A stretch of DNA of 64,000 bases from an uncultured Alphaproteobacteria bacterium (GCA_943787745.1 CALSNJ010000007.1:186001-250000); one strand, 5' to 3'; positions 43,946 to 59,214 are shown, numbered from the stretch's first letter. The notes: a model not told the origin generated them from the sequence alone. Translations and numbers: made by a program.

Positions 43946-44198
43946 CTTCGAGCCCTTTCAGGAGGTTGCCTGATCGGTACGTCATTTTTACGAAAACAGA
44001 TCAGTTTTGCACCATATTCGAGATGTTCTGTTCCGATTGTGCCCAAATGACAAAACACACAGGACGATGTGCCGGGTTGCTCTGCCGGGAACGGCGCGGC
44101 ATATTCCATCCGCGCCCTAAATTTGCGCTGTGACCGGCCACTTTCGGGGGCATAGGCCGGGTCCCAATGAGTTCGACCGAACCGAGGTTCCTCACGTT

Positions 44199-45440
44199 AT
44201 GAAGATCGCGATTGCCAAAGAGCGGCGCCCGCACGAGCGGCGTGTTGCGGCGACACCCGATACGATCAAGCGTTACCTGCAATGGGGTTTCGATGTGGCC
44301 GTGGAAAGTGGAGCGGGTGAAGCCGCTTCGATTTCTGATGCCGCTTATGTCGAAGCCGGTGCGACCGTCGGTGCGACGCGCGCCGAAGTGTTTGCCGGTG
44401 CTGATATCGTCTTGAAAGTACAACGCCCGCTGGCCCAGGATTCCGGGGATGACGGCCTGTCTGACATTCCGGACGGGGCTTTCCTCATCGGCCTGCACAA
44501 TCCTTACGGAGACCGGGACGGAGTTGATGCTTATGCGGCGCGGAATATCACTGCGTTTTCGATGGAAATGCTGCCGCGTATCAGTCGCGCGCAATCCATG
44601 GATGTGCTGAGCTCTCAGTCCAACCTGACCGGCTATAAGGCGGTGATTGACGGTGCGGCCAATTACGGCAAGGCGATGCCCATGCTGATGACCGCCGCGG
44701 GGCGCATCAATCCCGCCAAGGTCTTTGTGATGGGGGCCGGCGTGGCCGGACTGCAAGCGATAGCAACTGCGCGCCGTCTGGGGGCCATCGTTTCGGCAAC
44801 CGATGTGCGCGCGGCCTCGAAGGAAGAAGTTCAGAGCCTTGGGGCCACGTTCATTATGGTTGAGGCCGATGAGGGCGACACCGGACAAACCGCTGGTGGG
44901 TATGCCAAGGAAATGTCGGACGATTACAAACGCCGTCAGGCTGAGTTGATCGCGGAACATATCAAGGACCAGGATATCGTGATCACCACGGCCCTGATCC
45001 CGGGGCGGCCTGCGCCGACCCTGGTGAATGACGACATGATCGCGTCCATGCGGTCGGGATCAGTGATCGTTGATATTGCGGCGGAGCAGGGCGGTAACGT
45101 CACGCAGACCAAGCCCGGTGAGATCGCGGTTACGGCCAACGGGGTCAAAATTCTCGGTGAGTTCAACCTTCCATCGCGTCTCGCGACAGATGCCTCGGCG
45201 CTCTATTCGCGCAATGTGATGAACTTCGTTGAACTGCTTGTCGATACCGAAGGGAAGAAGATCGATATCGACTGGGAAGACGAGATCATCAAGGGCACCT
45301 GCCTGACGCGTGACGGCAAGGTGGTTCATCCCGCGTTGTTGCCGGAAGAGGAGAAGGCGCCCGAACCGGTCGCCACTGAAGATGCTGGGTCCGATTCGGA
45401 CAGCGCTTCGGAAACAGATTCAACCGAGAAGGGAGCCTGA
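44199..45440 (+). CDS. pntAA: NAD(P) transhydrogenase subunit alpha, part 1 (NAD-binding domain I)
   Basis: The soluble NAD(H)-binding part of the proton-translocating transhydrogenase that makes NADPH from NADH at the inner membrane. The 413 residues start MKIAIAKERRPHERRVAATPDTIKRY and include MEMLPRISRAQSMDVLSSQSNLTGYKAV, the Rossmann GAGVAGLQAIATARRLGA and the RQAELIAEHIKDQDIVITTALIPGRPAP loop. The C-terminus is an acidic, Ser-rich tail of about 30 residues (EEEKAPEPVATEDAGSDSDS). ATG 44199 was chosen as it begins the conserved region. It is 3 bases from pntAB. Confidence 0.97.
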   Translation: MKIAIAKERRPHERRVAATPDTIKRYLQWGFDVAVESGAGEAASISDAAYVEAGATVGATRAEVFAGADIVLKVQRPLAQDSGDDGLSDIPDGAFLIGLHNPYGDRDGVDAYAARNITAFSMEMLPRISRAQSMDVLSSQSNLTGYKAVIDGAANYGKAMPMLMTAAGRINPAKVFVMGAGVAGLQAIATARRLGAIVSATDVRAASKEEVQSLGATFIMVEADEGDTGQTAGGYAKEMSDDYKRRQAELIAEHIKDQDIVITTALIPGRPAPTLVNDDMIASMRSGSVIVDIAAEQGGNVTQTKPGEIAVTANGVKILGEFNLPSRLATDASALYSRNVMNFVELLVDTEGKKIDIDWEDEIIKGTCLTRDGKVVHPALLPEEEKAPEPVATEDAGSDSDSASETDSTEKGA

Positions 45441-45443
45441 TCC

Positions 45444-45851
45444 ATGGATCCTTCGACACTCGCTGACAACGCAGCGCGTCTGGCCAATGAGGCCGCGACG
45501 GTTGCTGAGAATGCAGCCGGACTTGCGCAGGAGGCAACTCAGCTTGCCCTCACGCAAACCGCCGGCGCGGGCGACCCCTTTGTATTCCTGTTCACGGTTT
45601 TCGTGCTGGCCTGTTTCATCGGCTACTACGTCGTGTGGAGCGTCACACCGGCTCTGCATTCGCCCTTGATGGCGGTGACCAACGCGATTTCCTCTGTGAT
45701 CATCGTCGGGGCGCTGATCGCGGCCGGACCGGATGACTGGAACATCTCGAAAATTTTCGGATTTATCGCCGTCATTCTGGCGTCGGTGAATATTTTTGGC
45801 GGGTTTATCGTGACGCAGAGAATGCTCGCGATGTACCGCGCGAAGAAATAG
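45444..45851 (+). CDS. pntAB: NAD(P) transhydrogenase subunit alpha, part 2 (membrane)
   Basis: The small membrane part of the alpha subunit (135 residues). Three to four helices follow an N-terminal Ala-rich amphipathic extension ([20 protein letters not shown]) not present in E. coli. The core [49 protein letters not shown] is typical, including the [12 protein letters not shown] loop. It lies between pntAA (3 bases) and pntB (10 bases), the usual split operon of alphaproteobacteria. Confidence 0.96.
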
Positions 45852-45861
45852 GGCGCTCGAT

Positions 45862-47265
45862 ATGTCTGCATCATTGACTGCATTTGCGTATCTGGTCTCC
45901 GGCGTCTGTTTCATCATGGCGTTGAAGGGGTTGAGTTCGCCCAAGACCGCGCGGATGGGCAACATTTACGGCATCTCCGGCATGGTGATAGCGATCCTGA
46001 CCACGATCGCGTTGCCAGGCGTGACGTCGCTCAGTGCGATTGTGATCGGCATTGCGATTGGCGGTGCCATTGGCGCCATCATCGCTTTGAAGATCGCGAT
46101 GACCGCATTGCCGCAGCTTGTCGCTGCTTTCCATTCACTGGTTGGCCTCGCAGCTGTCCTCGTGGCCGGTGCTGCGTTTTTCTCACCCGAGGCTTATGGC
46201 ATCGGGAGCGTGGGCAACATCCATATGGGTAGCCTGATCGAGATGTCGATTGGGACAGCCATTGGTGCCATCACCTTTACCGGTTCCATCATCGCGTTTG
46301 GCAAGCTCCAGGGCCTGGTGACGGGCAAGCCGCTGGTCTTCAAGGGCCAGCACATGGTCAATCTGGCACTTGGTGTTGCTCTGGTGGTGGCTGTGATCTG
46401 GCTGGCGGCGACGGAATCACCGAGTGCATTCTGGGCGATTGTGATCTTGTCCCTGATCATCGGTGTGACACTGATCCTGCCAATCGGTGGCGCGGATATG
46501 CCCGTTGTGGTGTCGATGCTGAACTCTTATTCGGGTTGGGCTGCAGCCGGGATTGGGTTCACGCTTTCCAACCCGGCCCTCATCATTGTGGGTGCCCTGG
46601 TCGGGTCCTCGGGCGCGATCCTCAGCTACATCATGTGCCGGGCGATGAACCGTTCGTTCTTCAGTGTGATCCTGGGCGGGTTTGGTGGTGAAGCCGCTGC
46701 TCCCGGCATGGAAGACCTGGGGGATCGCACCGTGCGTCAGGGCTCGGCCGAAGATGCAGCCTTCATTATGGAACAGGCCAACTCCGTCATCATCATTCCG
46801 GGTTACGGCATGGCGGTGGCTCAGGCCCAGCATGCGCTGGCCGAGATGGTCAGCGTGCTCGAAGAGAAGGGCGTCAAGGTTCGTTATGCGATCCATCCTG
46901 TTGCCGGGCGTATGCCGGGGCATATGAATGTGTTGCTGGCGGAAGCCAATGTTCCTTATGACGATGTGCTCGAACTCGATGAGATCAATTCGGACTTCTC
47001 TTCGACCGACGTGACCTTCGTGATTGGTGCGAATGACATCACCAACCCGGCTGCGAAGACCGACAAGTCCAGCCCGATTTACGGGATGCCGGTCTTCAAT
47101 CTGGATGAGTCGGGTACGGTGTTGTTCATCAAACGGTCGCTGGCCTCGGGTTATGCCGGTATCGACAACCCGCTCTTCTACAAGGACAACACGATGATGC
47201 TGTTCGATGACGCCAAGAAGATGTGCGAGAACATCGTCAAGACGCTCAAGGGCGGCGGTCACTAG
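45862..47265 (+). CDS. pntB: NAD(P) transhydrogenase subunit beta
   Basis: The NADP(H)-binding, proton-conducting beta subunit (467 residues). About nine membrane helices contain MGSLIEMSIGTAIGAITFTGSIIAFGKLQG and SPSAFWAIVILSL, and the soluble domain III starts with ITVRQGSAEDAAFIMEQANSVIIIPGYGMAVAQAQHALAEMV, whose GYGMAVAQAQ binds NADP, followed by HPVAGRMPGHMNVLLAEA and NDITNPAAKTDKSSPIYGMPV. It ends 28 bases before a strong terminator. Confidence 0.97.
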   Translation: MSASLTAFAYLVSGVCFIMALKGLSSPKTARMGNIYGISGMVIAILTTIALPGVTSLSAIVIGIAIGGAIGAIIALKIAMTALPQLVAAFHSLVGLAAVLVAGAAFFSPEAYGIGSVGNIHMGSLIEMSIGTAIGAITFTGSIIAFGKLQGLVTGKPLVFKGQHMVNLALGVALVVAVIWLAATESPSAFWAIVILSLIIGVTLILPIGGADMPVVVSMLNSYSGWAAAGIGFTLSNPALIIVGALVGSSGAILSYIMCRAMNRSFFSVILGGFGGEAAAPGMEDLGDRTVRQGSAEDAAFIMEQANSVIIIPGYGMAVAQAQHALAEMVSVLEEKGVKVRYAIHPVAGRMPGHMNVLLAEANVPYDDVLELDEINSDFSSTDVTFVIGANDITNPAAKTDKSSPIYGMPVFNLDESGTVLFIKRSLASGYAGIDNPLFYKDNTMMLFDDAKKMCENIVKTLKGGGH

Positions 47266-47355: not shown

Positions 47356-47571
47356 CTAGAAGCCTTCGCGTTCCTTACGCTTGCGGGCGAGCTTGCGCTG
47401 ACGGCGAACGGCTTCTGCGCCTTCGCGCGCACGCTTCTCCGACGGCTTCTCGTATGAGCGCCGCAGTTTCATCTCACGAAACACGCCTTCACGTTGCATC
47501 TTCTTCTTCAGCGCTTTCAGCGCCTGATCGACATTGTTGTCGCGTACAACAACCTGGACGATGGGAATCAC
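47356..47571 (-). CDS. rpsU: 30S ribosomal protein S21
   Basis: A 71-residue ribosomal protein: [45 protein letters not shown] with a Lys/Arg-rich tail. S21 aids initiation at the 30S platform. The start is unusual: GTG 47571 is the only common start codon, but it abuts the AAGGGG ribosome site. The alternative is an ATC at 47562, nine bases later at ideal spacing, which would give the usual MVQV beginning of this family. The gene has a structured leader upstream and shares a terminator with pntB. Confidence 0.9.
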
Positions 47572-47604
47572 CCCCTTCCGACTGAATTTGCTCCGGGCAT
47601 CGGG

Positions 47605-47661
47605 AAAAACAACCGATCCCGGGCAGCCTCTTGCGAGGAGGCGTCTACATACACGCCCGGG
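47605..47661 (-). promoter_or_regulatory. Structured rpsU leader: nested hairpin with T run (possible attenuator)
   Basis: Read on the minus strand, CCCGGGC (47661-47655) and GCCCGGG (47624-47618) form an outer stem and GCCTC and GAGGC (47642-47638 with 47630-47626) an inner one. A TTGTTTTT run follows 6 bases later (47605-47609). It begins about 35 bases before the rpsU start, in the position of a transcription attenuator. No protein ligand is implied. Confidence 0.45.
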
Positions 47662-47773
47662 GCACGAATGCCAAGCGATCAGGGCGAATGTGTCGTTGTG
47701 GCCCCAATTTGGGGGTGATGGCCGGAAAAAAACCACAATTCTGGCTCATATGGAGCCGTAACCTGCACTTTTG

Positions 47774-47833: not shown

Positions 47834-48724
47834 GTGAAAAACCTGTTTCGATTGGGCTGTTTGGTGTTTGTGGGGTTGCCGGTTGCGCTGGCGCTTCCGG
47901 CATGGGCGCAATCTGCTGGGGTTGGAAGCGGCCAGATCACAAATGCCACGGATGAATGTGATCGTTCGACCATCGACTACGCCGATGAAGAAGGGCTGAC
48001 GCTGGAGGAGAAGATCCGGCGTATGGATCTTGCCCTGACCCGGTCCCTGAATCGGTATGATGAGTGCGCGGCGCCCGACGACGACAAGCTTGATCCGCAA
48101 GACCCCGAAACACCCGCCGAAAGTGCCGAAACGGAATCCGGCGGCGCCGATGGAGCAGAAAATGCGGCTGCGGAAGGTGAATCCGCCGAAACTGCTGAAG
48201 GACAATCTTCCTCCGCATCACCCGGAGATATTTCCGGGAATGAGCCCGACCCGGATCCGAGCCAAAATCCATCCGTTACAACCTTGCCGAGCCTGACCCC
48301 ACCCCCTTCGGGGTCTGAGGGAACAAACGGCACGCAGGCGGGTTCGGCGCAGGCCACGGGTGTCGAGGGTGAAGGCGAAGATATGCCCTCAGTTTCCGGG
48401 TCTCCTTCTGTTGCTGCAGGTGATATTGCCGGAGACGAACCCGACCCTGAGCCTGTAGAACAGACGCGGGCATCGGGCGCGGGTCGTGAAATTGATCCAG
48501 AGCAGGCCGGTCAAGGAGGCGGTACAGGCGACGGCACGGTTGCCGGAACCCGGACGCGTGTCCTGAACAATGGAAAGCTGCCCGAGGACATTCCGCCATC
48601 CGACAATGACAGTGTGTTGGAGGCGCAGATACGACAAGCTGCGATTGACGAGCCTGACCCGGAGCTGAAAAAGAAACTCTGGAACGAATACCGCAGATAT
48701 AAGGGCTTACCGCAGGTCAAATAG
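47834..48724 (+). CDS. Secreted acidic protein, first gene of the vWA/proton-channel operon (unknown function)
   Basis: A 296-residue protein with a signal peptide (NLFRLGCLVFVGLPVALALPAWAQ, cleavage after AWA). A helical domain follows (DECDRSTIDYADEEGLTLEEKIRRMDLALTRSLNRYDEC, with a Cys pair at both ends), then about 150 residues of Glu/Ser/Ala/Gly/Pro-rich low-complexity sequence. A short conserved-looking tail ends ELKKKLWNEYRRYKGL. The middle is probably disordered and extracytoplasmic. It starts at GTG 47834 behind GGGAG. No known family. Position as first gene of a compact eight-gene run suggests a periplasmic partner in the same complex. Confidence 0.75.
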   Translation: MKNLFRLGCLVFVGLPVALALPAWAQSAGVGSGQITNATDECDRSTIDYADEEGLTLEEKIRRMDLALTRSLNRYDECAAPDDDKLDPQDPETPAESAETESGGADGAENAAAEGESAETAEGQSSSASPGDISGNEPDPDPSQNPSVTTLPSLTPPPSGSEGTNGTQAGSAQATGVEGEGEDMPSVSGSPSVAAGDIAGDEPDPEPVEQTRASGAGREIDPEQAGQGGGTGDGTVAGTRTRVLNNGKLPEDIPPSDNDSVLEAQIRQAAIDEPDPELKKKLWNEYRRYKGLPQVK

Positions 48725-48745
48725 CGGTTGGTGATGGAGAGATCG

Positions 48746-50002
48746 ATGCGTTTTTTGATGAAGAGAATGGGTGTCTATGCGGTCTGTTTCAGTTTGGTGC
48801 TGACCGGCTGTGTCACCAATCAGGGTGGAGCGGGCACGGCTGGCGCGGGCGGGCCAAACGTGGGTCCTCAGCTGTCATCAATTTTTGACAAGACCGGTGA
48901 AGCGGTCGTCGACCCGGGTAAGCCCAAGCTCGATATCGTGGTTCCGGTCTTTGACCCTGGACTTTCGGAAAATGCCGAGGATTACAAGGAAGAGGGTGTC
49001 TGGCCCGAATTGCGTCGTGCAGAAGCCAACCGGTTCGCGGTCAAACTGAAAGAAGCACTCGAGGATACAGGAGCATTCGGGGCTGTTCGCGTCGTGCCGG
49101 ATCAGACGGCAACCGGCGACTTGTACGTGCTGGGAAAGATTCTCGAATCGAATGGCGAGGATGTGGAGATACAGGTCGAAGTGACAGACATCACCGGCGA
49201 CAACTGGTTTACCCGGACGTTTGATCACACCGTCGATCCGGGGTTCCACAAAAATCCGCGCAACGAAGGCCGCGACCCTTATGACCCGGTTTTCGCCGAA
49301 GCCGCCAACCGCATCGCTTTGGAACTGGAAGATTATGAGGTTGCCGATCTGGAGACGATCCAGCATGTGACCGAGTTGCGCTTTGGTTCAAATTTTACCG
49401 AGGAAGCGTTTGCCGAGCATCTCGATGCAACAGGCCGCACCGTTGAGCTTGTCAGTTTCCCGAGCGAAGCGGACCCGATGCTCCGCCGGACGCGGGCCGT
49501 GCGTGTCCGCGATCAGCTGTTCGTTGATGGCTTGCAGGAACACTATCGAACCTTCAGTGCCAATATGCAGGATAGCTACCTTGTATGGCAGGAACAAAGC
49601 TTGCTGGAGCTCGAGGCCCGAAGTGAGGCGAACGAGAAGGCGGCAGGGCAGGCTGCATTGGGTGTTCTAGCGATCGGGCTGAGTGTCTTGGCCATCATGG
49701 CGGGGGCTCGATCGAGCTCGTCGGCCGGCGCTACGGCCGCCACAACGGGTGCCATTGTTGGCGGCGTTGTGGGCGCGAAACTTCTCACGGACAGTTTCCA
49801 AACCAGCGAGGAAGCCAAAGTGCATCGCGACGCGCTCGAGGAACTTGGCCAGTCGATCGATATCGATCTGGCCCCCCGTGTGATCGCGTTCCAAAAAGAA
49901 ACCGTCGAATTGACGGGGACCGCCAAGGAGCAGTTTGCCCAGTGGCGGGAGTTTCTGCAGAAAATTTTCGAGCAGGAAAAGACCCCGCAGGTACAGCTCT
50001 AG
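48746..50002 (+). CDS. Outer-membrane-type lipoprotein of the vWA/proton-channel operon
   Basis: A 418-residue protein beginning with a signal and lipobox (CFSLVLTGCVTN; the +2 residue is Val, so not Asp-retained). The N-terminal half looks like the strand-rich CsgG/LpoB-type nucleotide-free fold (KPKLDIVVPVFDPGL, then DLYVLGKILESNGEDVEIQVEV), a weak guess. The C-terminal half has a hydrophobic Gly/Ser-rich segment (LGVLAIGLSVLAIMAGARS then GATAATTGAIVGGVVGAKLL) with glycine-zipper character, so it may enter the membrane. Start at ATG 48746 is 5 bases after GGAGAG; in-frame ATGs at 48734 and 48728 lack one. It is 21 bases after the first gene. Confidence 0.75.
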   Translation: MRFLMKRMGVYAVCFSLVLTGCVTNQGGAGTAGAGGPNVGPQLSSIFDKTGEAVVDPGKPKLDIVVPVFDPGLSENAEDYKEEGVWPELRRAEANRFAVKLKEALEDTGAFGAVRVVPDQTATGDLYVLGKILESNGEDVEIQVEVTDITGDNWFTRTFDHTVDPGFHKNPRNEGRDPYDPVFAEAANRIALELEDYEVADLETIQHVTELRFGSNFTEEAFAEHLDATGRTVELVSFPSEADPMLRRTRAVRVRDQLFVDGLQEHYRTFSANMQDSYLVWQEQSLLELEARSEANEKAAGQAALGVLAIGLSVLAIMAGARSSSSAGATAATTGAIVGGVVGAKLLTDSFQTSEEAKVHRDALEELGQSIDIDLAPRVIAFQKETVELTGTAKEQFAQWREFLQKIFEQEKTPQVQL

Positions 50003-50015
50003 GTCTGCGCGTTCC

Positions 50016-51569
50016 ATGCTTCTCGAAAAACTCGAACAGGAAAGCCGCGCATCCCGGCGGCGACGGCTGATCGTTGCTGGCGGATTTGCCGGCGCGGCGG
50101 TTTTGCTTGGGCTGTTTCTTGTCGCGGTTGTTGTTGTCTGGCCCAAGGTCGAGGGCACAGCTGTAACTGCCGAACCGGTCCGCGAGGACGGGAGTCCTGT
50201 GCGCGTGGATGCGCGGGCTCCGGATGACAATGTTACGCGCCTATCGGCCAACCCTTCACCGGGAACGGCTCGGGATAGCGAGATTTCAGGCGAGATATCG
50301 CAAGGCAATCCGGTTTCACCGCAGCAATTCGACGATGACACGGCGTCGCGCGATCAGTTCAAGGCGCTGTTCGAGACCTTCCAGAAGGACATCGAGCCCG
50401 ACATTTCATCCACTGCCTTTGCCGGTTGGGACGCCGCCACGCAGCAAGACGTCATCGCGCAAAAAGAGTCAGCCTTCGCGCAGTTCTCCCGCGGGCAATA
50501 CAGCGAGGCGTTGGAAGGTTTGGAAGCTGCGACGTCGCAAGCCCAAAAATCTCTCGATGCACGTGATCTCGCTTTTGATGCGGCCTTGCGTGAGGCGCGA
50601 TCGGCTTATGACACAGACAACTATGATCAGGCCCTGCCGCAGATCACGCGGGCCCGCCAGTTGAAGCCGGACTCGGCCGAGGCTGAGGCTCTCGAAGCTG
50701 AGGTGGCGCGACTTCCAGAGATTTTGAATGCGATCTCGAAGGCCTCGGTGGCGCGTGTTGAAAACGATCTGGAGGCTGAGGAAAAATACCTTGGCGAGGC
50801 CCTCGCGCTTGACGCCGATCGGTCGGAGCTTGCGTTGCGGCGCCAGGAGATTCAGATAGAACGGAAGGAACGGGCATATGCTGGCCGGGTTCAGTCCGGA
50901 TTGGCGAATGTTCAGTCACGCCGGTTGTCGAGTGCGCGCGCGGATTTGAGCGCAGCGCGTGAGATGTTTTCGGATCGCAGCGAGACGCGATTGCTGTCCC
51001 GGCAGGTTGCTGCGCTGGCCGAGAAGATGGAGTTTGAAAAGATGATGGCATCGGCCGCCGATGCGCGCCGTGCCGATGACTGGATCGCTGCCGAGGATTT
51101 TTATGCGCGCGCGGGCGCAATCGTGCCCGATGATCCGCAGGTCAATGGCGGCTATCAACTTGCCGGGGAGATCAATCAACTGCAAACCGAGATGGTGAAG
51201 GTGCTCGACAAGCCTGAACGATTGGCATCAGAGAGCGTTGCTGCGCATGCATCAGCGCTTGTGTCGAAAGCGCGCGATATTGCCGATTTGAGCCCCTCGC
51301 TCGCCACGCGAAGCGAAGAGGTTGCAGCGCTTGTGAAGGCCTATGGAACCAAGGTTTCAATTCGTATCCTGTCCGATGGGATTACAAGAATTTCCGTACG
51401 CGGCGTCGGGCAGGTTGGCGCGACAACGGACCGAACCATCGAACTAAGGCCGGGGAGCTACACATTCGAAGGTGCGCGTGCGGGCTTCCGTTCCAAACTT
51501 ATTCAGGTTGATATTCCGCCCGGCACTGAAGGTCTGGTGTTGGAGATTTATCCCGATGAGCGCGTTTGA
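50016..51569 (+). CDS. TPR-containing inner-membrane protein with a C-terminal PEGA-like domain
   Basis: A 517-residue protein anchored by one N-terminal helix (LIVAGGFAGAAVLLGLFLVAVVVV) with a short basic cytoplasmic tip (KLEQESRASRRRR), so the rest is periplasmic. A flexible acidic linker is followed by a TPR-like helical solenoid (YSEALEGLEAATSQAQKSL, YDQALPQITRARQLKPDSAEAEALE, AEEKYLGEALALDADRSE) over about 150-380. The end (SIRILSDGITRISVRGVGQV and TIELRPGSYTFEGARAGFRSK) is a PEGA-like beta unit, as in the next gene. Its ATG is 13 bases after the lipoprotein and its 3' end overlaps the next gene by 14 bases. Confidence 0.78.
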   Translation: MLLEKLEQESRASRRRRLIVAGGFAGAAVLLGLFLVAVVVVWPKVEGTAVTAEPVREDGSPVRVDARAPDDNVTRLSANPSPGTARDSEISGEISQGNPVSPQQFDDDTASRDQFKALFETFQKDIEPDISSTAFAGWDAATQQDVIAQKESAFAQFSRGQYSEALEGLEAATSQAQKSLDARDLAFDAALREARSAYDTDNYDQALPQITRARQLKPDSAEAEALEAEVARLPEILNAISKASVARVENDLEAEEKYLGEALALDADRSELALRRQEIQIERKERAYAGRVQSGLANVQSRRLSSARADLSAAREMFSDRSETRLLSRQVAALAEKMEFEKMMASAADARRADDWIAAEDFYARAGAIVPDDPQVNGGYQLAGEINQLQTEMVKVLDKPERLASESVAAHASALVSKARDIADLSPSLATRSEEVAALVKAYGTKVSIRILSDGITRISVRGVGQVGATTDRTIELRPGSYTFEGARAGFRSKLIQVDIPPGTEGLVLEIYPDERV

Positions 51570-53574
51570 AGAGGGACTGCGGCAGGCCCGCAGACGTCAG
51601 GTTCGGTTTTACCTCGGGGGCGTGATTGGTCTGGTCGTCATAGGCCTTGTGGTCATCGGGGTGTTGGCGTCGACCAGCGGAACGGTGATGAAGATCGCAC
51701 CGGAAGAAGCCGAACAGCTCGGATCTGTAGAGTTGGTTTCCGGGATAGGTCTGACGGTTGGCACCACTGTCTACAGCCTGAGCGGATCTCCTGTCGTCCG
51801 CGTTGCAGCGGAGGGGTTTCAAGAGGTCGTGCATACAATCAGGCCCGAAGAGGCCGGACGTATAGTTGCGGTGCGGCTTGAGGCTTTGCCGGGGCGAATT
51901 GATGCTGCAACAACCCGTGATTTGCCCGAAACCCGCTGGAATCTTGACGGGACGCAGATCGCGGTCGGCTCAGCCATTGATGTCGAGCGCGCCGCCGGCA
52001 GCTATACACTGAACGTCGATCATCCGCATTTTCAGTCCGTTGAGCAGCTTGTTGAACTGCGACGTGGCAAAACCGAAGAAATTCGCCTCGATCTGAATCC
52101 GGTCGCCGGGCGGATATCCATCAAGTCCGAACCGTCCGGGGCCGAGGTGTTTTTCGACGAAACAAGTCTGGGTTTAACCCCTCTTGAATTGCCGATGGCA
52201 GGCGGGGCCTATGCGGTTCGTATTGTTGGCGAAGATCGTCAGCCGGTTGAAGAAGATATTCAGATCACCAACACGGCACCTGTTCTGGAACGTCGCTACA
52301 TTCTGAAGCCGCTGACCTCGGTCTTGCGCATTCGTACGATCCCGGCAGGTGGCCAGCTCCTTGTCGATGGGCGCCGTGTTCCGGAGTCCGGAGAAATCGA
52401 AGTGACCGCCAATGAAGATCACACGGTGACCTATGTGCGGCCCGGCTATCGTTTCAAAAGCGAGACCGTGCGCCTGACATCAAAGGAACAACGCGAGCTG
52501 ACAATGCAGCTTCAGGAAGAGCTTGGCGTTGTCGATATTCGGACCACCGCGGGTGCGGATATTATCGTGGACGGCAAGAAGGTGGGAACGGGCAGCGCCG
52601 AGCTGCAGCTGCAGGCGGTCCCGCACAAGATCGAGTTGCGCAAAAAGGGCTATCGCACCGTCCGCAAGACGGTCACACCATCCGGCCAACGTAGTCTCGT
52701 CATTCGAGAAGAACTGATTGGCGAAACCGCGGCACGACTGGCTGAATCCCCACGTTCCTATACGAATTCTGTTGGTATCAAACTCAACCTGTTTGAACCT
52801 GGCGCCCTTGTTATGGGGGCCCCCCGAAGCCAGAAAGGTCAGCGCGCCAATGAGTTCGAGCGGCGGGTCAGCCTGACGAAAGCCTTTTATGCTTCGCGCC
52901 ATGAGGTGACCAATGGACAGTTCGCACAGTTTCGCGGCGGGCGGCGCGGTGGGACCTCTCGTCCTGTTACAGGGGTTTCCTGGGTTGATGCTGCCGAATT
53001 TGCAAACTGGCTCAGCGTGCGCGAGAAACTGACCCCTTTCTATCGCATTTCCAATGGACGGCTTGCGGATGTCAGTCCGACCAGTGACGGCTACCGTTTG
53101 CTCAGTGAAGCGGAATGGGAATGGCTGGCGCGGAAGGCCGGGCGCCCCGCCCAGACCGTTTTCACCTGGGGTGACACGGCGACCGTGCCGCGCAAGGCAG
53201 GGAATATCGCAGATGAATCTGCCAATGGGCTCACGCGGTTTTACGTGCCCAAATACAACGACGGCTATGCCAGAACGGCACCGGTCGGAAGTTTCCCGGC
53301 AGAAATGTCAGGGCTTTTTGACCTGACGGGCAATGTGAGTGAATGGGTGCATGACTTCTATTCCTTGCAGCCGCCGGATCGTGGGCAGGTCGAGATCAAT
53401 CCGCTCGGGCCCGGTTTTGGAGACTCCCATGTGATCAAGGGCTCCAGCTGGAAGTCGGGAACGCGGACCCAGTTGCGGGCCGCTTATCGAGAAGGTGGAT
53501 CTCAGGGCAGCGATGAAATCGGATTTAGAATAGGAAGGTATCTGCATGGTGCACAAAGCAATCTCGCGCGATAG
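51556..53574 (+). CDS. PEGA-repeat and SUMF1/FGE-domain membrane protein without catalytic cysteines
   Basis: A 672-residue protein. A short basic N-terminus and a helix at about 18-38 (GGVIGLVVIGLVVIGVLAS) anchor it, followed by three PEGA repeats (about 184-252, 255-321, 324-387) and a PEGA-like unit at 112-182. From about 410 a SUMF1/formylglycine-generating-enzyme-like domain runs to the end, with EPGALVMGAP, HEVTNGQFAQF, PVTGVSWVDAAEFANWLS, YRLLSEAEWEWLAR, GLFDLTGNVSEWVHDFY and GSSWKSGTRTQLRAAYRE. The latter segment holds the catalytic Cys pair in true FGE, but here no cysteine occurs anywhere in the protein. It therefore probably serves as a binding or structural module. It overlaps the preceding gene by 14 bases and the small gene by 29. 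Confidence 0.82.
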   Translation: MSAFEEGLRQARRRQVRFYLGGVIGLVVIGLVVIGVLASTSGTVMKIAPEEAEQLGSVELVSGIGLTVGTTVYSLSGSPVVRVAAEGFQEVVHTIRPEEAGRIVAVRLEALPGRIDAATTRDLPETRWNLDGTQIAVGSAIDVERAAGSYTLNVDHPHFQSVEQLVELRRGKTEEIRLDLNPVAGRISIKSEPSGAEVFFDETSLGLTPLELPMAGGAYAVRIVGEDRQPVEEDIQITNTAPVLERRYILKPLTSVLRIRTIPAGGQLLVDGRRVPESGEIEVTANEDHTVTYVRPGYRFKSETVRLTSKEQRELTMQLQEELGVVDIRTTAGADIIVDGKKVGTGSAELQLQAVPHKIELRKKGYRTVRKTVTPSGQRSLVIREELIGETAARLAESPRSYTNSVGIKLNLFEPGALVMGAPRSQKGQRANEFERRVSLTKAFYASRHEVTNGQFAQFRGGRRGGTSRPVTGVSWVDAAEFANWLSVREKLTPFYRISNGRLADVSPTSDGYRLLSEAEWEWLARKAGRPAQTVFTWGDTATVPRKAGNIADESANGLTRFYVPKYNDGYARTAPVGSFPAEMSGLFDLTGNVSEWVHDFYSLQPPDRGQVEINPLGPGFGDSHVIKGSSWKSGTRTQLRAAYREGGSQGSDEIGFRIGRYLHGAQSNLAR

Positions 53575-53701
53575 GCCGCGAATTCGCCGGGTCATTGTGC
53601 TGGCCGTGGCGCTTGCCATGGGGGGCGGCCTGATTGGTTTTGCCTATGCCCAGTCGAGTATCAGTCTGAATTCACCGGTGTCCTTCCCGGTGGACATATA
53701 G
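53546..53701 (+). CDS. 51-residue exported peptide of the vWA/proton-channel operon
   Basis: A small reading frame that overlaps the end of the PEGA/SUMF1 gene by 29 bases and stops 24 bases before the proton-channel gene. ATG 53546 has an AGGAAGG ribosome site. The protein is a basic N-terminus (ISRDRPRIRR), one hydrophobic stretch (VIVLAVALAMGGGLIGF) with a plausible signal-peptidase site (AYA before QSS), then a short tail SISLNSPVSFPVDI. Either a 16-residue secreted peptide or a single-pass membrane protein would result. I recognise no family. Its place inside the operon argues it is real. Confidence 0.7.
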   Translation: MVHKAISRDRPRIRRVIVLAVALAMGGGLIGFAYAQSSISLNSPVSFPVDI

Positions 53702-53725
53702 CGCGACAGGAGAGCGATTCCGATT

Positions 53726-54493
53726 ATGGCATCTGCAATCAAAAACACCCTCGCATTGGTCGTTTCGATCATCGTCGTTCATCTGATTTATGTTGGCTAT
53801 ATCTGGCCCGAATCAACACAAGTGATCGAGGCTGCGCGCGCAGCCGGCCAAAGTGCCCCGCGCGATCTGCTGGTGATCCTCAAGGATTGGGAGCAGGAAA
53901 TCTGCATCATCATGATGCTGTGGGGGACATTCATGATCCTCGACAAATGCTTTGCGATCCTGAAGGACCGTTACCTGTTCAATGTTGATTTGCTCGACGG
54001 TGCGGCCGAAGACGAGGGCGACCTCCTCACCATGCTCGACACGCTGGAGAAACTTCCCGACCGTATCCGGACCACACCGCTTGTGCGGACCCTTGCAGCC
54101 AGCCTTCGGCGCTTCCTGATTACCGAAGATGTGCAGAACACATCAGAGACCATCGATGCAAATGTCGAGGCGCTGGCGGTGAAACAGGAGGCTGAAAATT
54201 CCATGGTCCGGTATCTGATCTGGGCGATCCCGGCCATCGGTTTTATCGGCACCGTGCGCGGTATTGGTCAGGCATTGTCCCAGGCGGATCAGGCGCTTGC
54301 CGGTGATATCGCGGGCATGACCGAGAGCCTTGGTGTTGCCTTCAATTCAACCTTTGTGGCGCTGTTGATCAGCGTTGTGCTCATGTTTCTGCTGCATCAG
54401 CTTCAGAGATTGCAGGACTCCATGGTGACGGACACGCAAGAGTACTGCGAATCCTTCCTGTTGAACCGCATCAGCTCCGTGGGCAAAAGCTGA
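53726..54493 (+). CDS. MotA/TolQ/ExbB-type proton channel family protein
   Basis: A 255-residue inner-membrane protein with four hydrophobic helices: 8-28 (LALVVSIIVVHLIYVGYIW), 59-76 (ICIIMMLWGTFMILDKC), about 162-182 (YLIWAIPAIGFIGTVRGIG) and about 205-225 (LGVAFNSTFVALLISVVLMF). The IGFIGTVRGIG and AFNSTFVALL segments match the conserved channel motifs of TolQ and ExbB. Such subunits form a pentameric stator around two ExbD/TolR/MotB helices and conduct protons. The adjacent vWA proteins, whose single helices begin with a conserved Asp, are the likely partners. No ExbD or TolR gene is seen here. Confidence 0.85.
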   Translation: MASAIKNTLALVVSIIVVHLIYVGYIWPESTQVIEAARAAGQSAPRDLLVILKDWEQEICIIMMLWGTFMILDKCFAILKDRYLFNVDLLDGAAEDEGDLLTMLDTLEKLPDRIRTTPLVRTLAASLRRFLITEDVQNTSETIDANVEALAVKQEAENSMVRYLIWAIPAIGFIGTVRGIGQALSQADQALAGDIAGMTESLGVAFNSTFVALLISVVLMFLLHQLQRLQDSMVTDTQEYCESFLLNRISSVGKS

Positions 54494-55551
54494 GACCGCG
54501 CCGTAAATCCGAGGGGTTTAACCTCGCCTTTCTGGATGTCATGTCCTGTGGGTTGGGTGCGATCATTCTCGTGTTGATGCTCGTCAAGCACGATGTGGAG
54601 CATGTCTCGGATGAAAGCGAACGCCTGACCTCCGATCTCGAACGGCTCCAGAGCACCGAAGAGGAACTGAGCGCAAAAGTGGTGAGTGCGTTGCGCGCGA
54701 AAGCGGCGACAACGGGACAGGTTGAAGCCCTGGAGAGTGAGATATCCCGAGTCCGGCGCGAGCTTCAGGAAAAACAGGTGGAGATCACTGCACGTCGCAG
54801 TGAGGAAAAAACCCTCGAGGAAACGATCAAGACCATCGAGGTGCAGGACAATACCGATATTGTCGAAAACCGGCAGGTCGGTGAAGAAAACTACGTGATC
54901 GGATTGCGGGTTGAAGGCAAACGTATCGGTATTCTCGTCGACAGTTCGGCGTCCATGACCGAAGAGAAGCTGATCGATATCATCCGGAGCAAGAATATGG
55001 CTCCCGGTGTGCGCATTCAGGCTCCCAAATGGCAGCGCACACGTCGGGTTGTTGCATGGCTGCTGGCGCGATTGCCGCGCGATACAAGTGTACGCGTGGT
55101 GGCATTTGGGGAGACAGCGCAGGGCCTTGGAAACTCGGCTGGGGTGTCGGGAGGTGACGCCGCTGGATTGTGGCAGATTGTTTCAGATATGAACAAGATC
55201 GTCCCGGGGGGTGCGACGAACCTTGCGGCCGGGCTCAAGGCCATTTCGGCGCACAAGCCGACCGATCTGTATCTGATCACCGATGGTCTGCCGACGGCGG
55301 GAAATTCGGGATATCGCAGCCTTAACCCGTTCTCTGGCTGCAGCGCCTTGTGGGGCGGCTCCACCTCGATATCAGGTGAATGCCGCGCGCGCCTGTTTCG
55401 CCATACGGTCAACAATGCCGGTATGGATAAGGTCCGAACCAACGTGATTCTGCTTCCGCTTGAGGGCGACCCTGAAGCGGCGGCACATTTCTGGCGCTGG
55501 ACTGCGGCAACAAACGGGTTGTTGATCAGCCCCGCGGAGAGCTGGCCTTGA
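54490..55551 (+). CDS. vWA-domain membrane protein 1, ExbD/TolR-like stator partner (predicted CTG start)
   Basis: A 353-residue protein if translation starts at CTG 54490, whose CTGA overlaps the stop of the channel gene. The first ATG (54541) would cut the conserved anchor FLDVMSCGLGAIILVLMLVKH, which begins at residue 14 with Asp16. A coiled coil (about 35-110) follows, then a von Willebrand A domain with an intact MIDAS (D151-S-S-A-S155 in IGILVDSSASM) and VAFGETAQG, GGATNLAAGL, DLYLITDGLP. The paralog downstream shares the anchor and overall plan. The anchor plus helix-first Asp is the plan of ExbD/TolR/MotB, hence the stator reading. Substrate unknown. Confidence 0.78.
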   Translation: MRPRRKSEGFNLAFLDVMSCGLGAIILVLMLVKHDVEHVSDESERLTSDLERLQSTEEELSAKVVSALRAKAATTGQVEALESEISRVRRELQEKQVEITARRSEEKTLEETIKTIEVQDNTDIVENRQVGEENYVIGLRVEGKRIGILVDSSASMTEEKLIDIIRSKNMAPGVRIQAPKWQRTRRVVAWLLARLPRDTSVRVVAFGETAQGLGNSAGVSGGDAAGLWQIVSDMNKIVPGGATNLAAGLKAISAHKPTDLYLITDGLPTAGNSGYRSLNPFSGCSALWGGSTSISGECRARLFRHTVNNAGMDKVRTNVILLPLEGDPEAAAHFWRWTAATNGLLISPAESWP

Positions 55552-56504
55552 AGCGAAAATCCCGCGAGTTGGAAATATTCAGCCTGTCGTTTCTCGACAT
55601 CATTTCCTGCGGGTTTGGTGCGGTCGTTCTGCTTGTTCTGATTTCGACCTTCGCGGAATCCGTGCTGCCGGACTTCACATCGGAAACCAAGCAGGCGCTT
55701 GATCAGGTGTTGGCGGCTGAAGCACGTGTTGAGGCATTGGAAAGCGCGCTCGTGCAGGAAACCCAGACTTTGGAAGATATCCAGGACAGGTTGACCGAAG
55801 AGAGCACGAAAGCAGCCCGGGCCAAGAACCAACTACGTGCGGCGAATGCGCAAGCGGAAAGCCTCGATGAGAACCTGGCAGGTCTGGAGTTGGTTGAGCG
55901 TTCTTTGCGCGACAACCAGCGCGCGAGCATCACGCCCAATACCTCGGAGACCCGGGATGAGGAAGTCGGTGGTATACCTGTCGACAGCGACTATGTGGTC
56001 TTCATCATCGATACCTCGGGCAGCATGCAGGCCATCTGGTCGCGCGTGACCAGCGAGGTCGAGAACATCATCAACATCCACCCCCGCATCAAGGGCTTCC
56101 AGATCCTCAATGACAATGGCACGCATCTCGTTAGTGGGTATGCCGGGCGCTGGATACCCGACACCAAAGCACGCCGTGACAGCGTTATTCGATTGTTCCG
56201 GAACTGGAAGAGTGCGTCGAACAGCAGCCCTGTGGAAGGGCTTGAAGTTGCCCTGAAACGCTATGTGAACCCGAACCAGAAAGTCTCGATCTACATCTTT
56301 GGCGATGACTACACGGGTTCGAGTTACGACACGGTGATTCGCACCCTCCGGCGGGCAAATGCGAACCGCATTACCGGAAAGCCGCTGGCCCGTGTGCACG
56401 CGATCGGATTTCTCTCGCCAACATCCAACGGTCGTTTTGAGACCCTGATGCGTGAAGTGACGCGGCAGAACAATGGGACATTCATCGCGCTGCCGGTCCG
56501 CTAG
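55548..56504 (+). CDS. vWA-domain membrane protein 2, ExbD/TolR-like stator partner
   Basis: A 318-residue paralog of the previous protein. It starts at TTG 55548 overlapping the upstream stop (TTGA), with GGAGAG at good spacing. Basic tip, anchor FLDIISCGFGAVVLLVLIS (Asp17), coiled coil (about 45-120), then a von Willebrand A domain with MIDAS (D155-T-S-G-S159 in VFIIDTSGSM) and IFGDDYTGSSYDTVIRTLRR. Residues after the anchor should be periplasmic. The two vWA proteins may form a heterodimer, like ExbD2 or MotB2. It ends the operon; the next gene is convergent. Confidence 0.82.
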   Translation: MKRKSRELEIFSLSFLDIISCGFGAVVLLVLISTFAESVLPDFTSETKQALDQVLAAEARVEALESALVQETQTLEDIQDRLTEESTKAARAKNQLRAANAQAESLDENLAGLELVERSLRDNQRASITPNTSETRDEEVGGIPVDSDYVVFIIDTSGSMQAIWSRVTSEVENIINIHPRIKGFQILNDNGTHLVSGYAGRWIPDTKARRDSVIRLFRNWKSASNSSPVEGLEVALKRYVNPNQKVSIYIFGDDYTGSSYDTVIRTLRRANANRITGKPLARVHAIGFLSPTSNGRFETLMREVTRQNNGTFIALPVR

Positions 56505-56512
56505 AATTTTGG

Positions 56513-57193
56513 CTAGCGCAGGAAGCGAATCCATCGCCAGAGATTGAGCAGGCTGACGAGTGACCCGGCGACATAGGTCAGCGCGCAAGCCCTGAGGATA
56601 CTGCGTGCTGCGGGCATGTCTTCGGGCGGCAGATATCCGCCCGAGTCAAGAATCGGAAGCGCCCGCCCGAATGAGGCGTCGAACTCTACCGGCAGCGTGA
56701 TCAGGTGAACGACAACCGCGCTGCCCATTGTCGCGATTCCCGCAGCTGCCATGAGGAGACCAAGTCCGGGCGCTTGCGTGACCGCGCCGAGCAGGATCGA
56801 GCCGAAAAGGATTGCCGAGCCGATCTTCTGAAGACGGGCCGCCCATTTGACCATATCGGTTCGTGCGCGCAGAGGCGCATATCCGTTGCCGTCCTGCAAG
56901 GCGTGTCCGACCTCGTGGGCGGCGACCGTGACGGCGGTCAGCGAGCGGCCGTCGAAATTGGCTTCCGAAAGACGGACCGTCTTGTCTTCCGGGTCATAGT
57001 GGTCGCCCCTTTCGGTTTGTTCGACACGCACCTCGGACAGGCCGGCCTCGTCGAGCAGGTGCCGGGCGAGTTCGCCGCCGGTGCCGGGGAAATCAGGGCG
57101 ATCTGCGGCATGCCGGGACAACACCGTCCGCGCCCAGAGGCTGGGGCCGAATACGATGGCAAGCAGCAGTACGATGAGGATGAGCCAGGGCAT
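56513..57193 (-). CDS. Zinc membrane metallopeptidase, YugP family
   Basis: A 226-residue membrane protease of the Zn_peptidase_2 family. It has an N-terminal helix (LILIVLLLAIVFGPSLW), GTGGELARHLLDEAGLSEV, then the zinc-binding AAHEVGHALQD (HExxH) and C-terminal membrane helices (AILFGSILLGAVTQ, IATMGSAVVVHLITLPVEFDAS, where the Glu is the likely third ligand). ATG 57193 is chosen; the frame extends upstream through non-conserved sequence inside the permease gene. It lies 11 bases after the permease stop and may be co-transcribed. Substrate unknown. Confidence 0.88.
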   Translation of the reverse strand: MPWLILIVLLLAIVFGPSLWARTVLSRHAADRPDFPGTGGELARHLLDEAGLSEVRVEQTERGDHYDPEDKTVRLSEANFDGRSLTAVTVAAHEVGHALQDGNGYAPLRARTDMVKWAARLQKIGSAILFGSILLGAVTQAPGLGLLMAAAGIATMGSAVVVHLITLPVEFDASFGRALPILDSGGYLPPEDMPAARSILRACALTYVAGSLVSLLNLWRWIRFLR

Positions 57194-57204
57194 ATGCGGG
57201 AGTC

Positions 57205-58131
57205 CTAGCGGCGCACTGAGCGCGGATCGAGCGCATCCTGAAGGCCATCCCCGAGAAAATTGAAGGCCAGAACCGTCACAAAGATGACGGCACCGGGCCA
57301 GACTGCCAGCGCGGGCGCGCGGGTCGCGAGTTCCTGGGCGTTGGTCAGCATGTTGCCCCAACTGGGGATCGGCGGCTGAATGCCGAGCCCCAGAAAGCTT
57401 AGAACGGATTCAAGCAGAATCACGGATCCGATCGAAAGCGTGGTGGCCACAATGATGGGGGACACCACGTTGGGCAGGATATGCCGGAGCATCATGGTCG
57501 TGGACCCGGCACCCATGGCCTCAGCTGCGCGCACAAATTCCCGTGTCCGCACTGACAAGGTGGCCGCGCGAACCAGACGGGCGACCGTGGTCCAGCCGAC
57601 AATCGCGATAATGAAAACGATGCGATAGAGGCTCGCCATTTCCGAGGTTGCGATGCTTTCGGGAATACCGATTTTGGTCAGGTCGATCGCGGCAAGAATG
57701 ATCAGCAGTGGCAACAAGGGCAGGGCGATCACACCGTCCGTGGAACGCATCAGGAAGGTGTCGAGCCACCCGCCGCGGTAGCCCGCCAACAATCCGATGG
57801 TTGTGCCGATCACGGCTGCACCGATCGCGGCCACCAGACCAACGAGAAGTGAGATGCGTCCGCCATAGAGCAGGCGGATGAAGACATCACGACCGGCTTC
57901 GTCGGTGCCGAGCCAATGGATGGCACTGGGGGCGGCGTATTGGTTGAACAGATCCACCCGGGTTGCCTCGATCCCGAGCAGGCTTTCAAAGGCCGGGGCG
58001 AGCAGCGCGAGTGTGGTGATGGCAACAAGGATCACCGCGCTGACCATGGCGGACCGGTTGCGCCGCAGGCGCTTCCAGAAGAGGTTGGGTTCTGCCGTCG
58101 CGACGCCCGGGGACGTTTGGGCGATAGTCAT
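57205..58131 (-). CDS. Oligopeptide/dipeptide-type ABC transporter permease (DppC/OppC)
   Basis: A 308-residue permease with an OppC N-terminal tail (FWKRLRRNRSAMVSAVILV) and five or six helices. The transmembrane coupling loop shows the EAA motif (FVRAAEAMGAGSTTMMLRHILPNVVSPIIV), and the upstream segment HWLGTDEAGRDVFIRLLYGGRISLLVG is typical of this subfamily. It overlaps the DppB-type gene by 4 bases. No ATPase subunits are present in the window, so they must lie elsewhere. Confidence 0.93.
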   Translation of the reverse strand: MTIAQTSPGVATAEPNLFWKRLRRNRSAMVSAVILVAITTLALLAPAFESLLGIEATRVDLFNQYAAPSAIHWLGTDEAGRDVFIRLLYGGRISLLVGLVAAIGAAVIGTTIGLLAGYRGGWLDTFLMRSTDGVIALPLLPLLIILAAIDLTKIGIPESIATSEMASLYRIVFIIAIVGWTTVARLVRAATLSVRTREFVRAAEAMGAGSTTMMLRHILPNVVSPIIVATTLSIGSVILLESVLSFLGLGIQPPIPSWGNMLTNAQELATRAPALAVWPGAVIFVTVLAFNFLGDGLQDALDPRSVRR

Positions 58132-59093
58132 GCAGCTTCCAATACGCGGAAGGAAATGCGTGGATCGAGAACCGCATAGGCGATATCGGCCAGAAAGTTT
58201 CCGATCAGAACCACGAGCGTTGCCAGCAACAGGCCGACAAGCGCGAGATTGAAATCATTCCCGAGGATGGAATCGTAGATCAGCTTCCCCATGCCCAGAT
58301 AACCGAACATGGTTTCGGTAATCAGGGCCCCGGAGAAAAGCGCACCGAAATCGAGCGCGATGATCGTGGTCAGCGGCAGCATGGCGTTGCGCAAGCCGTG
58401 GCCGAACACGGTCCGGCCCGACCCGAGCCCCTTGGCGCGGGCGGTTCGAATGTAATCCTGGCGCAAGACCTCGATCATCGCTGCGCGGGCAAAGCGCGTA
58501 TATCCGGCAAGGCTGGCAATGGTGAGTGTCGCAACAGGCAAGATCAGAAATTCCAGCCGCCCCAGCAGACCTGTTTCGGGTGATCCCATACCCCCGGCGG
58601 GCAGCCAGCCGAGTGTCACGGCGAAGAACATGATGAACACAAGCGCCAACCAGAAGGGCGGCACCGAAATGCCCGCAAAACAGAACAGGTTGATCGCGCC
58701 GTCGAGGGGGGACTGGGGTCGGGTGGCGGCGATCACCCCCAGCGGGATGGCGATGGCAATGGCAACCAGCGAACTCAGGCCAAGCAGGATGACCGTGTTA
58801 CCAAGGCGCGGGAGCAGAATATCCAGCACAGGGCGATTATAGGTGCGCGAAAAGCCAAGATCGCCATGCAGAACGCCACCCAGCCAGTTTGTGTAACGCT
58901 CCCAGAGCGGCAGATCGAGGCCGTGCAGGCGCTTGAGTCGTTCGCCATCCGCAGGTGTCAGGTCCGGGTTGGACGCGATCATGATGTCGATCGGATCGCC
59001 AGGCATCAGGCCGATCAGCATGAAAACGATGAACGACATCACCGTCAGAACGATGGCCATGCCCAAAAGCCGACGTGTCAGGAAGCCGATCAA
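58128..59093 (-). CDS. Oligopeptide/dipeptide-type ABC transporter permease (DppB/OppB)
   Basis: A 321-residue permease with six helices: FLTRRLLGMAIVLTVMSFIVFMLIGLMPGDPID at the N-terminus, the GDLGFSRTYNRPVLDILLPRLGNT periplasmic loop, and the EAA-type loop MIEVLRQDYIRTARAKGLGSG. I set the start at TTG 59093 because a palindromic repeat (59099-59201) occupies everything upstream and the residues it would encode are not conserved. It lies downstream of the substrate-binding protein gene, with only the repeat between. Confidence 0.9.
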   Translation of the reverse strand: MIGFLTRRLLGMAIVLTVMSFIVFMLIGLMPGDPIDIMIASNPDLTPADGERLKRLHGLDLPLWERYTNWLGGVLHGDLGFSRTYNRPVLDILLPRLGNTVILLGLSSLVAIAIAIPLGVIAATRPQSPLDGAINLFCFAGISVPPFWLALVFIMFFAVTLGWLPAGGMGSPETGLLGRLEFLILPVATLTIASLAGYTRFARAAMIEVLRQDYIRTARAKGLGSGRTVFGHGLRNAMLPLTTIIALDFGALFSGALITETMFGYLGMGKLIYDSILGNDFNLALVGLLLATLVVLIGNFLADIAYAVLDPRISFRVLEAA

Positions 59094-59098
59094 AAAAC

Positions 59099-59201
59099 GG
59101 TCATGGCCGGACTTGTTCCCGCCATCCACGTGGTTGGTGCCTCGAAGATCGTTGTGGGGGCCGATGGACGTGGATGCCCGCAACAGGTGCGGGTATGACG
59201 A
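59099..59201. repeat. Dispersed palindromic repeat between the substrate-binding and permease genes
   Basis: Two arms, GTCATGGCCGGACTTGTTCC (from 59100) and the complementary ATGCCCGCAACAGGTGCGGG (to about 59193, continuing TATGACG), face each other over a 37-base gap. The left arm is the same unit as at 22183. As RNA the arms would fold into a long hairpin. Confidence 0.75.
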
Positions 59202-59214
59202 TGTCTTTCTGTCG

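Follow-up and report, generated by a model that had tools for sequence, protein, structure and literature searches.

The window analysed is a stretch of 64,000 nucleotides from an uncultured Alphaproteobacteria bacterium. Inspection of its ORFs confirmed eight genes at 47834-56504, all of them on the plus strand, which are separated by gaps of 21, 13 and 24 nt or overlap by 14, 29, 4 and 4 nt. This is the arrangement given in the original prediction (eight plus-strand genes, gaps of 24 bases or less, four overlaps), and the three short gaps and four overlaps are consistent with a single operon. Directly upstream, three NAD(P) transhydrogenase subunit genes were recognized by eye (44130-47265), and a small minus-strand gene (47356-47736) lies between them and the cluster. 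Downstream, the minus strand carries at 56513-60873 a zinc metallopeptidase-like gene with an HEVGH motif and a peptide-type ABC transporter operon, both assigned by eye; a few close relatives likewise have these ABC genes downstream of their operon.

The first four genes encode envelope proteins. Gene 1 (47834..48724), which starts with GTG, encodes a secreted acidic low-complexity protein with a signal peptide identified by eye. It has homologues in 60 of the 80 related loci that were compared and is conserved near its C-terminus only (D259, Q265, A269, A270, E273, D275, P276, LW282-283 and EYR285-287). Gene 2 (48746..50002) encodes a lipoprotein with the lipobox LTGC, whose Cys22 is kept in 58 of 63 homologues. 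As the residue following this Cys is not Asp, the protein is probably directed to the outer membrane. Its residues 62-162 form an alpha/beta domain weakly resembling TolB-N, LptE and PelC, after which comes a helix of 77 residues. The TolB and PelC matches of this domain had E values of 8e-3 to 0.1 and a Foldseek probability of 0.9-1.0 with a low TM-score, and no solved relatives of the lipoprotein were found by sequence.

Genes 3 (50016..51569) and 4 (51556..53574) encode proteins anchored in the inner membrane, each with one N-terminal TM helix (by eye) and with PEGA-type periplasmic domains. The TPR repeats of the gene 3 product are below threshold, and its C-terminal region, PEGA-like by eye, has S453, G468 and G480 invariant. 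The gene 4 product contains four PEGA domains and a SUMF1/FGE-fold domain at 414-659, and was matched by the Pfam FGE-sulfatase model with 123 bits. The best named model for its SUMF1 domain was GldK/PorK (6e-23), with a score of 81.8 bits against a cut-off of 350, and the protein was consequently rejected as a GldK/PorK equivalog. Solved PorK chains match residues 465-661, and FGE enzymes match equally well. The gene 4 product has no Cys, and an alignment of 76 sequences shows no column of conserved Cys. Because the SUMF1 domain lacks Cys, this protein cannot be a formylglycine-generating enzyme; catalytic sulfatase maturation was excluded by the absence of the active-site Cys pair.

Gene 5 (53546..53701) encodes a micro-protein of 51 aa with a signal peptide, identified by eye, in which AYA precedes Q36. 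The predicted mature peptide is QSSISLNSPVSFPVDI, with FPVDI, the hallmark of this family, at its C-terminus. The element coding for this tail and its stop, TTCCCGGTGGACATATAG (53684..53701, plus strand), is the only FPxDI-stop in the whole genome, and a general sorting tag was rejected for this genome on that ground. In related loci, the alpha-type micro-proteins consist of a signal peptide and about 16-20 residues ending in SLNSPVSFPVDI, and in the gamma-type ones the mature part is mostly 46-90 residues long and often acidic. A profile scan had left the gamma clade without a micro-protein, which was discarded when inspection revealed one that has a long and variable linker and ends in the same way. 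Nearly all members end in FPxDI: FPxD[IF] was counted 74 times, and [FYI]Px[DN][IF] stands at the C-terminus in all 78 testable loci. In these 78 loci the tail is encoded by 55 different DNA 15-mers, and each of the four Pro codons and three stop codons is used. Selection on FPxDI thus acts at the peptide level, and a conserved DNA element, for instance a ribosome-binding region, was rejected. A literature search did not retrieve any paper on the FPVDI motif in such a setting.

Ion-driven 5:2 motors power flagella, nutrient import, outer-membrane upkeep, gliding and secretion. Their channels of the ExbB, TolQ and MotA type work with ExbD, TolR or MotB, which have one helix with an essential Asp. 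The product of gene 6 (53726..54493) is a channel of this type, since the Pfam model MotA_ExbB (PF01618) matched it with 49.3 bits against a cut-off of 22.9; no solved relatives were found by sequence with the channel profile. T176 is invariant in 81 of 81 homologues and T209 in 80 of 80, and alignment with the E. coli references placed these columns at T148 and T181 of ExbB and at T145 and T178 of TolQ. ExbD Asp25 and ExbB Thr148 and Thr181 have been termed essential (PMC12905483). In the reference alignment the position of ExbB E176 is occupied by Val204, so that the pore of gene 6 differs from that of ExbB. In the tree, the channel family and its distant relatives from loci L030 and L031 formed their own clade with respect to TolQ, ExbB and MotA, with long branches to the references.

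A profile search of the contigs of the genome revealed four MotA/TolQ/ExbB genes: TolQ with TolR, the flagellar MotA with MotB, a third MotA-like gene beside an OmpA-domain gene, and gene 6. The only ExbD-type gene of the genome is the TolR adjoining TolQ, on a contig other than that of the window, and the cluster itself is, as had been claimed, free of ExbD, TolR, TonB and Pal genes. Since the remaining channels have their own neighbours and the single ExbD is TolR, the only obvious axle for gene 6 is the pair of vWA proteins encoded after it. Across the 80 loci, the ExbD-type motif was found in one ORF only, near the end of one locus.

Genes 7 (54490..55551) and 8 (55548..56504) encode vWA-A and vWA-B, respectively. 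The vWA-A anchor, FNLAFLD16VMSCGLGA, has Asp16 invariant in 75 of 75 sequences, and the vWA-B anchor, FSLSFLD17IISCGFGA, has Asp17 invariant in 73 of 73. By eye, both anchors (FNLAFLDVMSCGLGA and FSLSFLDIISCGFGA) are as similar to that of MotB (WKIAYADFMTAMMA) as to that of ExbD (NVTPFIDVMLVLL). The anchor of vWA-A is followed by a coiled coil. Both vWA domains were below the Pfam threshold by sequence (26.7 bits against 27 for one and 16.8 for the other), and the only solved relative of vWA-B found by sequence was a coiled-coil match. The AlphaFold2 model of vWA-B displayed a clear vWA fold at 149-318, with pLDDT above 90 and a best Foldseek E value of 3e-7 (ANTXR2 vWA). This model places a TM helix at 15-33, in an anchor region of low confidence (pLDDT 40-70), and a rod at 44-125, an 82-residue helix that would be about 12 nm long if straight. 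The MIDAS of vWA-A is complete (D151, S153, S155, T243 and D265), and that of vWA-B comprises DxSxS at 155-159 and D253; DxSxS is kept in 75 of 75 vWA-A and 72 of 72 vWA-B sequences.

The start codons of these two genes are TTG for vWA-B and apparently CTG for vWA-A. The latter, at 54490, overlaps the stop of the channel gene (CTGA), and the next ATG is at 54541, where a start would remove the key Asp. In ten of ten near relatives examined, the window included, CTG overlaps the channel stop in this way and is the only nearby upstream start, and one of them has an in-frame TAA two codons ahead of it. Judged from the sequence, vWA-A appears to start at this CTG, as the original prediction had allowed for; automatic annotation would probably pick the ATG at 54541 and lose the Asp.

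The distribution of the cluster was studied in a scan of named genomes, in which 80 loci out of at least 589 relatives were examined. These loci come from Alpha- and Gammaproteobacteria and Desulfobacterota, and their carriers include Rhodospirillales, Sneathiella, Magnetovibrio, Methylophaga, Thiotrichaceae, Arenicellales, Woeseiaceae, Porticoccus, SAR92, a Nitrosomonadaceae MAG and Desulfobacterota MAGs. Within the genus of the window, as well as in one further genus of the same family, the eight genes are all found in synteny. Order and strand are identical in 54 of the 56 loci having all seven larger genes, the other two having them split into two blocks. Elsewhere in the set genes are missing at contig ends, with two exceptions. 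One is L072, in which gene 1 is absent and no contig edge explains it; the other, L092 from a Myxococcota-labelled MAG, consists of the channel and the two vWA genes alone and is a candidate minimal motor. Among 385 alphaproteobacterial genomes, the ten with full-length vWA-B are precisely the ten with the gene 2 lipoprotein, and vWA-B was found in 16 of 398 genomes of a Pseudomonadota-wide sample, 13 of these in one family. The system is patchy in its distribution but always whole, and its eight genes are inherited together as one system. Separate inheritance, the outcome that would have spoken against the original prediction, was not observed.

The cluster occurs in at least two proteobacterial classes and in Desulfobacterota. 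Cultured carriers in which the idea of a vWA axle can be tested are Magnetovibrio blakemorei, Methylophaga aminisulfidivorans, Aestuariispira insulae, Denitrobaculum tricleocarpae and Sneathiella sp. One genome of the same genus as the window has a second complete copy of the operon, 30-40% identical (L034, 4297-14061, G002:C123). In the tree its channel clusters with the gamma-type clade, and for this reason the second copy was likely gained separately. In a plasmid search the channel gave distant matches only and vWA-B gave none, by which plasmid carriage of the operon was rejected.

Most loci of the gamma clade have one additional gene between the channel and vWA-A (10760-11899 in L081 and 10760-12172 in L098). 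Of four members scanned, two (L098 and L110) have a C-terminal FHA domain, and the N-terminal 370 residues or so had no Pfam match. In some of these loci Ser/Thr kinase, PP2C, OmpA or TPR/TonB_C genes lie alongside, the kinase and PP2C genes being upstream in some. A distant variant, in L030 (7247-12783) and L031 (10596-19509), has Ser/Thr kinase and FHA genes beside a related channel, and no micro-protein was seen upstream of this channel in either locus. The L030 kinase carries a beta-helix, and the vWA proteins of L030 have the same SxLD anchor, with its Asp, as vWA-A and vWA-B. None of these accompanying genes is present in the operon of the window.

The motor principle and the prediction of a vWA axle have already been published. 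PMC12204202 (Mol Biol Evol 2025, msaf138) describes, beside tolQ-like genes and in the absence of tolR and exbD, vWA proteins in heterologous pairs whose pore helix is like that of TolR/ExbD, the seed of this predicted TPH-vWA/TolQ-like motor family being Idiomarina loihiensis, and its AlphaFold3 models of the vWA/tolQ-like complex independently predict the same arrangement. The window's operon shares with this family the tolQ-like gene, the heterologous vWA pair, the lack of tolR and exbD in the cluster, an Asp in each pore helix and the Thr ring, and neither of its vWA proteins has the SHLS motif. The proposal that the vWA proteins are the stator partners is accordingly sustained by co-inheritance, the invariant Asp, the Thr pair and the lack of a spare ExbD, but the machine cannot be called undescribed in this respect, and that proposal is an independent rediscovery of the one in PMC12204202. 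No function is assigned in that paper, in agreement with the claim that no system of this composition has been characterised. Its main text and Fig. 4 legend do not mention PEGA, SUMF1, a lipoprotein, a micro-protein or FPxDI. Our literature search yielded no paper naming such a gene composition, the comparison with PMC12204202 covering its text. What we could not find described in the literature searched is the whole machine, with its Cys-free SUMF1/PEGA protein and its FPxDI micro-protein.

We consider that the operon probably encodes a PMF-driven trans-envelope motor of the 5:2 type whose axle is a vWA heterodimer, and the replacement of ExbD/MotB by the vWA proteins is strongly supported. 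With the ExbB-ExbD(-TonB) and TolQ-TolR(-TolA-TolB-Pal) systems the operon has in common the channel superfamily, the Thr pair, the Asp in the pore helix and a lipoprotein weakly like TolB-N. However, it lacks ExbD, TolR, TonB, TolA, the TolB propeller and Pal, has Val instead of E176, and carries its vWA heads on long rods belonging to two different axle proteins. Membership in Tol-Pal was rejected, as no TolR, TolA, TolB propeller or Pal is encoded by the eight genes and TolQ and TolR lie elsewhere in the genome. The channel could nevertheless work in trans with the TolR of the genome or another ExbD, the vWA proteins being passive transducers like TolA or TonB, or adhesins bound at its side. 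TonB/TolA-like vWA transducers do exist, and PMC12204202 describes them as having SHLS and usually accompanying tolR genes. Against such a role stand the invariant Asp of both anchors, the lack of SHLS, the position of the only ExbD next to TolQ and, save for the one ORF near a locus end, the lack of ExbD-type motifs in the 80 loci; we regard it as very improbable. As for MotA-MotB and ZorA-ZorB, the vWA-A anchor (FNLAFLDVM) resembles by eye that of MotB (WKIAYADFM) and there is a weak ZorA match, but the vWA axle proteins have no peptidoglycan-binding OmpA domain and the channel falls in a separate clade. A Zorya (ZorAB) or other defence system was rejected, PADLOC giving nothing beyond coiled-coil noise and a ZorA match of 16 bits, and NCBIfam 13.5 bits against 500.

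A machine similar to those of type IX secretion (T9SS) and gliding, with a GldK-like PEGA/SUMF1 ring turned by the vWA shaft so that surface cargo is moved or exported, seems unlikely. In the T9SS, the 5:2 motor GldLM turns a GldK/GldN ring through a GldM shaft of 18 nm (PMC9389320; PMC9127263), and the operon likewise combines a 5:2-type motor gene with a SUMF1-fold protein and a long periplasmic shaft; GldK as best named model and the PorK matches point in the same direction. However, the score falls well short of the GldK cut-off, SUMF1 folds occur widely, and the match to PorK is no better than that to FGE enzymes. Moreover, the SUMF1 protein is anchored in the inner membrane and carries PEGA domains instead of being a lipoprotein, and neither the channel nor any other protein matched GldL, GldM or GldN. 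SprA had no match in the genome, and none in the control genomes either. A little less probable still is a signalling or mechanosensing complex that performs no external work, in which ion flow or movement of the pore helices would report the state of the envelope or surface and the vWA heads would sense a ligand. The FHA protein between channel and vWA-A in gamma loci, the kinase and PP2C genes upstream in some of them and the kinase and FHA genes adjoining the channel in L030 and L031 favour it, and in such subtypes control by phosphorylation is plausible. Nevertheless, the subtype of the window has no FHA, kinase or phosphatase gene in its operon, and the complete conservation of the ion-path residues suits an energy-using motor.

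In the motor that we prefer, gene 6 would form a pentameric wheel, and one copy each of vWA-A and vWA-B would provide two pore helices, each with a single protonatable Asp as in ExbD, TolR and MotB. Passage of ions, presumably protons, past the Thr ring would cause a relative rotation or a power stroke, which the helical rod of about 80 residues would transmit some 12 nm into the periplasm to the pair of vWA heads with their intact metal sites; the motor would thereby turn or pull the vWA heterodimer between the membranes. From their localisation signals and weak fold similarities, the products of genes 1-5 may be placed as scaffold or load. Those of genes 3 and 4 would be a periplasmic scaffold or collar holding the wheel or guiding the shaft, the lipoprotein and the secreted acidic protein would be the load or receiver at the outer membrane or in the periplasm, and the micro-protein would dock through its free FPxDI tail onto another component. 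The machine would act on a ligand in the periplasm or at the surface, and its role, as far as gene content can indicate, may be outer-membrane upkeep, surface movement or export. The cluster indicates a further branch of 5:2 motors, whose axle combines two different vWA proteins and which has a constant set of envelope proteins of its own.

A free C-terminal Asp-Ile near two intact MIDAS sites suggests that FPxDI could be a vWA ligand, which we offer as a guess. Its extension to a proton-driven, integrin-like clutch, in which the MIDAS sites would grip the Asp of the tail and proton flow would load, release or position the peptide, and whatever it is joined to, at the outer membrane, is doubtful. 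If true, the eight genes would be a class of self-contained envelope machine with its own peptide ligand. The invariant tail is a small handle that should reveal which part of the machine the micro-protein binds. Finally, GGIPVDSDYVVF (window 55971-56001, vWA-B residues 142-151), a highly conserved stretch containing GGIPVDS and located just ahead of the first core (MIDAS) strand of vWA-B, is similar to the micro-protein's FPVDI tail; it is possibly a pseudo-ligand, possibly a coincidence.
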